NCBI GenBank assembly: GCA_035307765.1
Contig: DATGHU010000048.1
Coordinates: 1 to 64,000 of the forward strand
Reading direction: 5' to 3'
From: a bacterium
GTDB taxonomy: Bacteria > Sysuimicrobiota > Sysuimicrobiia > Sysuimicrobiales > Segetimicrobiaceae
DNA length: 64,000 bases
The position numbers and the translations under genes were made by a program. Shown here piece after piece: positions 24,226 through 26,165 of the stretch (positions are counted from its first letter, which is position 1; every line of letters starts with the position of its first letter). Under the pieces are notes generated by a model. The model was not told where the DNA came from. It worked only from the letters and a program-made list of their open reading frames with translations, and made no database searches.

Positions 24226-24459
24226 ATGGCGCTGGACAACGAACGGAACCGCGTATTGGCCTCGTTACGGGATCGCTCAGATGGCGTCGACAGTTCTGTC
24301 CTGGTCGAGGGCCTTGGCTTGACCAAGGACGTAGTGGAGCGCCACCTTCTCTACTGCGTGGACTACGGGCTGGCGACCTGGAAGCGGCACCGGAATGGAT
24401 CGGGGGAAGCGACAATCACGGATCGCGGCCGAGACTATTTGCGTCGTCAAGAGGAATGA
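24226..24459 (+). CDS. Small winged-helix-like DNA-binding protein
   Basis: A 77-residue protein with AAGGAGG six bases before the ATG. The pattern RVLASLRDRSDGVDSSVLVE, GLTKDVVERHLLYCVDYGLA and ATITDRGRDYLRR is that of a winged helix of the MarR/ArsR/PadR-like kind: helix, recognition helix, wing, and the TxRGRxYL ending. It is followed within a few bases by the degenerate LAGLIDADG gene and then an XRE-type gene, so three DNA-binding-like genes are in a row. Target unknown. Confidence 0.75.
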   Translation: MALDNERNRVLASLRDRSDGVDSSVLVEGLGLTKDVVERHLLYCVDYGLATWKRHRNGSGEATITDRGRDYLRRQEE

Positions 24460-24466
24460 GACGACC

Positions 24467-25249
24467 GTGCGTCTGAGGGCGCCCAACGAGCAGGACCTCG
24501 AATTGCGGGAACGCACCGCGAAGATTCGGACTGCGGCGCGCGGCGGAAAGAGTTCCCTGGAAATCGCCGAGGTGCAACACCTTCCTCTGGCGGCGGTCGA
24601 GCGGATCTTGGCGCCGATCGAACACTCCCGCATCTCCGACCCGGTCTGCTTGCTTCAGAAGCAGCGGGTCACCGTGGGGACCGCTCCCGCTGAGATCCAG
24701 TTGTACTGGCTCGGATTCCTGATGGCTGCCGGGTACATCTGGGGGCAAGGAAGCTCTCTCGCGCTCGTGATCACGCTGGGCGCAGAGTCCCGCGCCCACA
24801 TCGAGACGTTCATGGCCGATCTCTCAACGGATCGGATCTATTGCGAGTTCTGCTACAGCAGCATTGTGGGGTGGCAGGTCTACTTGCGCGATCAGGATCT
24901 GTGCAAAGCCTTGTTCCCTTGGGGGGTGCCGTCGGAGCTCCACGGGAGCGATTCGGCGCTGCTCGACGATCTCCCGGGGGAACTGGCGATTCCATTCATC
25001 CGTGGGTACGTCGATGGAAACTGGCCCTTCATCCACTCCACAAACGGCCCGAAAGCGGGGGACTTCGCGGTGGAGGGGACCCCGGCCTTCCTTCATAGAC
25101 TGCACGCTATGATCAAGCGATGTTGGCGGATCCGCGGGGGGGCCGTCAGTTCGCGGGGCGGACGGACCACGCTCCGCTTCTCGGACCCGGGGGCCTGCCG
25201 CGTCATCCAAACCCACCTGAGCTCCTTCGTCTCGCGGGTCCGCACCTGA
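24467..25249 (+). CDS. Degenerate LAGLIDADG protein with N-terminal helix-turn-helix (WhiA-like idea)
   Basis: About 260 residues from GTG 24467 (an ATG at 24395 is in frame but overlaps the previous gene). Residues 10-50 look like a helix-turn-helix (RERTAKIRTAARGGKSSLEI, then LAAVERIL). Residues 75-255 follow the LAGLIDADG fold: motif 1 WLGFLMAAGYI (81-91), VYLRDQDLCKALFPWGV (138-154), motif 2 FIRGYVDGNW (177-186), and a final sheet/helix repeat. The catalytic acid of motif 1 is replaced by Ala (A88) and that of motif 2 by Asn (N185), so DNA cleavage is unlikely. WhiA, a sporulation and division regulator, also has a catalytically dead LAGLIDADG domain plus HTH, in the other order. I infer a DNA-binding regulator. 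There is no sign of an intein or intron. Confidence 0.72.
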   Translation: MRLRAPNEQDLELRERTAKIRTAARGGKSSLEIAEVQHLPLAAVERILAPIEHSRISDPVCLLQKQRVTVGTAPAEIQLYWLGFLMAAGYIWGQGSSLALVITLGAESRAHIETFMADLSTDRIYCEFCYSSIVGWQVYLRDQDLCKALFPWGVPSELHGSDSALLDDLPGELAIPFIRGYVDGNWPFIHSTNGPKAGDFAVEGTPAFLHRLHAMIKRCWRIRGGAVSSRGGRTTLRFSDPGACRVIQTHLSSFVSRVRT

Positions 25250-25256
25250 AGGAACT

Positions 25257-25619
25257 GTGATCGAAAGAGCACGACGGTTCCGTGACATCGGGCGAAGGTC
25301 CCACGGGGAGAGATTGCGGTTGGATCATCACGCACGGCGGACCCAGGAGTGGAAGGAAAGTAACCCGCTCAAGCGGCGGCGGGTTGCGGGTCGACTATCC
25401 ACCCATCAGGTGGCGGAGATACTGGGCATCACGAATGCGCAGGTGTTGGAATTGGAAGCGGGCGCATCACCCACAGATCTCGAGATGATGATGGTGACCA
25501 GAGGCTCGGGGATTACGAAGACACAGTGGACCGCGTGGGAACGTGCGATGCCATGTGGCCCTGAGCCCGAAACATCCTCCGCCCCTCCGATCCTCGACGC
25601 ACGCCGCCCCGCGGTGTGA
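25257..25619 (+). CDS. XRE-like helix-turn-helix protein
   Basis: A frame of 120 residues beginning at GTG 25257, seven bases after the previous gene. Residues about 38-72 (LKRRRVAGRLSTHQVAEILG, ITNAQVLELEAG) form a clear Cro/C1-type helix-turn-helix; WTAWERAM follows. The N-terminal 35 residues are Arg-rich and may not be translated if a later start is used. It is the third gene of the DNA-binding trio. Confidence 0.6.
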   Translation: MIERARRFRDIGRRSHGERLRLDHHARRTQEWKESNPLKRRRVAGRLSTHQVAEILGITNAQVLELEAGASPTDLEMMMVTRGSGITKTQWTAWERAMPCGPEPETSSAPPILDARRPAV

Positions 25620-25952: not shown

Positions 25953-26165
25953 ATGTGGTTGAATGTGAAGGGGAAGGGGCACCTTATCAACTTGGATCAC
26001 GTCATGGAGATCAAGGCGATGCTGACCCATGGAAAAAGTGCCCTGCAGGCGATCCTTCCAAACGGTGAGGCACTGGTGGTTCGCGAATATGGAGCGCCCC
26101 AGGACGCAGCGTCCGTACTGGACCGAATCGCCGAGGCGCTGGAGCCCAAGGTCTATTCAGTTTAA
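25953..26165 (+). CDS. Small conserved-looking protein, unknown
   Basis: A 70-residue protein with an excellent GAGGAGGTGA site. The sequence (MWLNVKGKGHLINLDHVMEI, SALQAILPNGEALVVREY, VLDRIAEAL) has the beta-strand/helix rhythm of a small folded domain and normal composition. No family is recognised. It is monocistronic. Confidence 0.65.
   Translation: MWLNVKGKGHLINLDHVMEIKAMLTHGKSALQAILPNGEALVVREYGAPQDAASVLDRIAEALEPKVYSV

Follow-up and report, generated by a model that had tools for sequence, protein, structure and literature searches.

Three closely spaced genes at the locus

Within the window (the whole stretch of 64,000 nucleotides that was analysed), three open reading frames lay on one strand with a 7-bp gap at each junction, as the initial annotation had indicated when it placed the genes a few bases apart:

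24226–24459, + strand: small winged-helix-like protein, 77 aa, with an ATG start and a strong Shine-Dalgarno sequence ('aaggagg'); partner of the a-type copy (gene 1)
24467–25249, + strand: helix-turn-helix (HTH)-LAGLIDADG protein without either catalytic acid, 260 aa, GTG start; the a-type copy (gene 2)
25257–25619, + strand: XRE-like small protein, 120 aa, GTG start; its status as a neighbour is not conserved (gene 3)

The central ORF started with GTG in the window and with ATG at the same aligned residue in relatives. It was free-standing, and a search for intron families (Rfam) found none in the 19 kb around the locus, in agreement with the earlier statement that neither an intein nor an intron was present. 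The same search on nine relatives' loci returned tRNAs only and no intron. A paralogue of the a-type copy, referred to as b-type and 59% identical to it, was located on contig C33. The host belongs to Ca. Sysuimicrobiota, a little-known phylum from soil and hot springs that has been described (PMC11604079).

Fold and closest relatives of the central protein

The central protein has a LAGLIDADG fold with an N-terminal HTH. This architecture had been proposed from the sequence, and a phage protein family, a profile–profile comparison and a predicted structure all agreed with it. The family alignment comprised 34 near-complete Sysuimicrobiota members, which represented four of the seven groups at family level (f1–f7) that were covered. 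None of the 34 members and not the window protein matched a LAGLIDADG model of Pfam (LAGLIDADG_1 and LAGLIDADG_3 at the gathering score included), NCBIfam or PADLOC, and a PDB sequence search returned HTH-type matches and noise but nothing else. Some family members matched HTH_23, HTH_IclR or Sigma70_r4_2 in Pfam.

PHROG 4645, a phage endonuclease family, matched the window protein with an E-value of 5.3e-13 and two distant family members with 1e-9 and 3e-8. When the family profile was aligned to 25 phage HTH-LAGLIDADG proteins with hhalign, the match (99.5%, E 2.7e-22) covered 236 columns and ran from the HTH to the C-terminus. When run against other genomes, the family profile also retrieved inteins and canonical LAGLIDADG proteins, and from viral contigs it recovered proteins of the HTH-LAGLIDADG type. 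Judged by these sequence comparisons, the closest known relatives are the phage HTH-LAGLIDADG homing endonucleases of PHROG 4645, which are of similar length, have the N-terminal HTH followed by a two-repeat LAGLIDADG domain, and can be aligned end to end with the family.

A confident AlphaFold2 model (pLDDT 79.8, pTM 0.73), built on a 47-row alignment of mostly phage enzymes that could steer it, gave the LAGLIDADG fold. It showed a three-helix HTH and, C-terminal to it, two LAGLIDADG-type repeats (α-β-β-α-β-β-α), with one strand of the second repeat unassigned. The HTH was placed as follows:

24500–24613, + strand: N-terminal HTH, residues 12–49; model helices at residues 8–25, 30–36 and 41–48; aligns with the phage HTH

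With this model, the top Foldseek matches were I-DmoI (2.5e-5), I-SceI (2.5e-5) and WhiA (2.7e-5), the PDB matches listed were LAGLIDADG proteins, and matches to the phage enzymes reached 2.8e-10. An earlier model, built with five close relatives and no phage enzymes, was poor (pLDDT 52); Foldseek ranked WhiA and meganucleases at the top for it, without significance.

Loss of the catalytic residues and gain of an invariant surface

Three regions of the LAGLIDADG domain set the family apart from the phage enzymes:

24689–24733, + strand: first LAGLIDADG motif helix, residues 75–89, acid replaced by Ala88
24977–25024, + strand: second LAGLIDADG motif helix, residues 171–186, acid replaced by Asn185
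24845–24892, + strand: β3–β4 hairpin, residues 127–142, a family-specific invariant surface with the pattern E-x-C-x-S-S-x-x-G-x-Q-x-Y-x-R-D

The replacement of both motif acids, which the initial annotation had pointed out, was confirmed at the codon level. Ala88 is encoded by 24728–24730, in 'YWLGFLMAAGYI', where ADG is expected in a LAGLIDADG enzyme, and Asn185 by 25019–25021, in 'FIRGYVDGNW', where DGDG is expected. None of the 34 members had an acid (D or E) at position 88 (A in 18, S in 8, C in 5 and T in 3), and at position 185 D was kept in 4 members and replaced by another residue in 30. In contrast, the phage set had D at position 88 and D at position 185 in 42 of 42 sequences each, a count that is partly biased because the second motif was contained in one retrieval pattern. 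The acids were likewise intact at six loci (L118–L123) fetched with a dead-family pattern that excluded the acids. Two lysines that were present in all 42 phage enzymes, K162 and K258, were found in 0 and 2 of the 34 dead-family members, respectively.

Other residues had instead become fixed. S131, G135, Y139, R141 and W152 were present in 34/34 dead-family members and E127 and Q137 in 33/34, and none of these was fixed in the phage set. The mean entropy of the β3–β4 region was 1.34 in the dead family versus 2.89 in the phage enzymes, the largest drop among thirteen regions, and that of the HTH was 1.86 versus 2.50. The β3–β4 strands of active LAGLIDADG enzymes are part of the DNA-contacting saddle, which makes this the pattern of a protein that binds one fixed ligand. 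The loss of the phage-fixed lysines together with the fixation of a polar surface indicates that the protein was repurposed and is not decaying, with β3–β4 as putative recognition strands.

Genes next to the orthologues

The order dead LAGLIDADG gene, RRM gene, DEAD-box helicase gene, all on the same strand, was found in 8/8 members of f2 (L069, L068, L073, L057, L058, L060, L056 and L064), a count that does not equal eight independent events since synteny within a family is inherited and the conserved linkages are few. The gap between the dead gene and the RRM gene was 26–56 bp in seven members; in G036 the copy was frame-split with looser spacing. The RRM gene beside the dead gene was the sole RRM gene of each f2 genome.

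In four f1 cases (G000b, G009, G011a and G006d), the dead gene was followed on its own strand, after 102–137 bp, by a cold-shock (Csp) gene. The distance to a Csp gene was up to about 1.2 kb in G001a, G002b, G004, G039b and G042. Beyond the four closely spaced loci, f1 had three with a Csp gene within about 1.2 kb, and at two f6 loci the Csp gene was on the opposite strand. There were 2–8 CSD matches per genome, and by arithmetic (4 CSD matches, 3.8 Mb) the chance of a Csp gene within 500 bp of a gene was about 0.1% per gene. The Csp, RRM and DEAD-box genes have classical cold-shock or RNA-chaperone functions. The window copy had no Csp or RRM neighbour within about 8 kb, and many members, g2 and most of f6, had neither neighbour.

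A link between the absence of the dead family and the absence of cold-shock genes was considered and rejected: f3–f5 all have CSD genes without having the dead gene, which is thus not required for cold-shock genes. In f1, csp is apparently transcribed from a promoter of its own, and the Csp linkage there is an adjacency and not an operon. Footprinting upstream of the dead-family genes revealed no convincing operator; in f2 and f6, extended −10-like boxes near the start codon are no more than suggestive. A block of about 270 nt that was conserved beside several orthologues and appeared RNA-like was in fact the csp coding region.

These neighbours bear on the main rival to a DNA-binding regulator, an RNA-binding role, which we regard as unlikely. 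The protein would then be a maturase-like RNA-binding cofactor of the cold-shock, RRM and DEAD-box RNA chaperones, and its HTH would be a leftover or autoregulatory. The apparent operon with the RRM and DEAD-box genes throughout f2 is consistent with such a cofactor, as are the RNA binding of LAGLIDADG maturases, which share the fold, and the Foldseek matches of the model to the bI3 maturase (2ab5, E 6.2e-5) and I-AniI (1p8k). However, the family differs from the maturases in its added HTH, which is typically a DNA-binding element and is conserved; the closest relatives are DNA endonucleases, and the search of the flanks revealed no intron family. On balance, a cofactor of this kind has a minor share of the probability.

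Several further observations were made around the orthologues. A CspA-type cold-shock gene adjoined the dead gene on its downstream side in L040, L048, L052 and L078, with a promoter-like TGTCATACT box between the two genes in L040 and L048. In three f6 members, a small KOW/Tudor-like protein overlapped the start of the dead gene (L074:7677–7899, L070:7811–7994 and, upstream, L065). Several b-type/g3 copies had as a neighbour, encoded on one strand or the other, a small, very basic protein with the pattern M[AK][RK]P.Y...KRA.E.K.KAKR.AKLA (L045:7150–7351, L044:8672–8990, L046:669–921 and L048:8637–8886). Finally, a short protein with the pattern 'MWL[ND]...LINLD[HY]V' was encoded downstream of two dead-gene paralogues, at 25953–26165 in the window and at L046:2063–2333, with 36% identity.

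The flanking genes in the window

The initial annotation had presented the central gene as part of a trio, between a winged-helix and an XRE-type gene. Both flanking genes are present, but both assignments fell below the curated cut-offs: the best Pfam match of gene 1 had an E-value of 0.019, and gene 3 matched HTH_3 with an E-value of 0.0023 and 18.4 bits against a cut-off of 23, below the threshold for XRE. Gene 1 adjoined the a-type copy in 5/5 genomes of the genus and, in one other genus, the single copy of G007, but no other copies of the dead gene; its dN/dS was 0.03–0.11. It belonged to a multi-copy family in genomes of the same taxonomic family, with most copies located elsewhere; copies were also seen on contigs C46 and C41 of G000, the latter with in-frame stops. 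Gene 3 had a paralogue with 44% identity elsewhere in its own genome (G000:C30), and no homologue of it was linked to the dead gene in relatives. The trio is a local arrangement that does not hold as a unit, and within it the pair of genes 1 and 2 is conserved at the genus level.

A lineage-specific regulatory or toxin–antitoxin-like operon of the three window genes is improbable. The short gaps on both sides and the recurrent pairing of genes 1 and 2 would be expected of such an operon, but gene 3 is unlinked in relatives, gene 1 is found mostly elsewhere, no toxin domain was present, and the only matches to defence models (PADLOC) were weak and of the HTH type.

The dead family is one clade under purifying selection

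Within the genomes searched, the dead family was confined to Ca. Sysuimicrobiota, where it was present in 12/12 f1 genomes and in most of f2, f6 and f7, and absent from f3, f4 and f5. It formed one clade with UFBoot/SH-aLRT support of 100/100, which was present in 99% of the trees from 200 bootstraps, and the branching inside the clade largely tracked the taxonomic families. The acid-intact phage and bacterial relatives were distant, on a separate side of the tree, which was midpoint-rooted, with the active-to-dead direction inferred from known families. Neither result that the initial annotation had named as refuting, close relatives with intact acids and mobility or a predicted fold other than LAGLIDADG, was obtained. 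No dead-clade copy turned up when viral contigs were scanned with protein queries, and with its free-standing ORF and order-wide clade the family lacked the hallmarks of mobility.

The protein could also be the remnant of a selfish element, or an anti-homing protein, a cleavage-dead enzyme retained because it sits on the site that active homing endonucleases target and so keeps them from invading. Active-looking LAGLIDADG genes in the same order and the fixed recognition surface would fit this possibility, which the vertical, order-wide inheritance, the stable f2 neighbours, the distance of the active-looking genes on the tree and the lack of insertion into a conserved gene nevertheless make quite improbable. 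A decaying, pseudogene-like homing endonuclease without function, as the loss of both acids and the fragmented copies in G006, G036 and G033 might suggest, is strongly disfavoured by purifying selection (pairwise dN/dS 0.06–0.26), by ORFs that are intact in nearly all members, by the new invariant residues and by the position of the G006 breaks at contig ends.

The initial annotation had suspected an undescribed family turned to a cellular use. No model in the libraries searched described the family, and no description of it was found in the open-access literature searched. Together with the single clade and the low dN/dS, these results support a conserved, domesticated family that is undescribed by the libraries searched.

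A probable domesticated homing endonuclease and regulator

The central gene is probably a domesticated homing endonuclease that now serves as a DNA-binding regulator tied to cold-shock and RNA-chaperone genes. An HTH-LAGLIDADG enzyme of the PHROG 4645 type would have been acquired by the Sysuimicrobiota lineage before it split into families and would then have lost the metal-binding acids and the two associated lysines. The phage enzymes keep D88, D185, K162 and K258 and have a variable recognition surface, whereas the Sysuimicrobiota clade has lost these residues and fixed new ones. The product of this active-to-dead descent would be a vertically inherited, non-cleaving, sequence-specific regulator with DNA, not RNA, as its ligand. 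Recognition may be bipartite, as in WhiA: the N-terminal HTH would read one element and the dead LAGLIDADG saddle, with its fixed polar β3–β4 surface, a second one. Promoter-proximal binding would modulate transcription of the adjacent genes, and in orthologues the targets would be the RRM protein and the DEAD-box helicase, or CspA. The window gene is a genus-specific extra copy paired with the small winged-helix protein.

To our knowledge, WhiA is the lone bacterial homing endonuclease that has become a transcription factor. The analogy to WhiA drawn in the initial annotation was supported, as WhiA (DUF199; PF02650 HTH_WhiA and PF14527 LAGLIDADG_WhiA) also combines a cleavage-dead LAGLIDADG domain with an HTH, is chromosomal and vertically inherited, and was among the top structural matches. 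In contrast, the domain order of WhiA is LAGLIDADG followed by HTH (PMC3781837), the reverse of that in the Sysuimicrobiota family. None of the 34 dead-family members matched a WhiA Pfam model, and PF02650, the WhiA HTH, was not found in any of the 12 Sysuimicrobiota genomes tested. In Mycoplasma gallisepticum, WhiA binds a core motif with its HTH and an auxiliary motif with its HEN domain and represses the rpsJ operon (PMC11701221), and work on WhiA has not settled what its dead nuclease domain does (PMC3781837). The yeast HO endonuclease is likewise a LAGLIDADG homing endonuclease adopted by its host (PMC7282813), but it is still an endonuclease, whereas the Sysuimicrobiota family is without the catalytic acids.

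The family may represent a second domestication, independent of WhiA, that gave rise to a phylum-specific DNA- or RNA-binding regulator of cold-shock and RNA-chaperone genes with its own new recognition surface; we put this forward tentatively. With its domain order reversed and a catalytically intact relative in phages, the family would be an evolutionary replicate of the WhiA case that allows a site-by-site comparison of the residues lost and gained on domestication, and the new invariant surface on β3–β4 offers direct targets for mutation.

Other LAGLIDADG proteins

Two of the genomes with the dead family, G023 and G040, also had canonical, free-standing LAGLIDADG genes that retain the acids and are separate from the dead gene. 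In several Sysuimicrobiota genomes, a gene resembling V/A-type ATPase subunit B carried an intein containing a LAGLIDADG domain (L115, L116 and L217). Among the phage sequences, the HTH-LAGLIDADG protein was joined in one long ORF to a C-terminal DNA-methyltransferase-like region (L146, L151 and L171).
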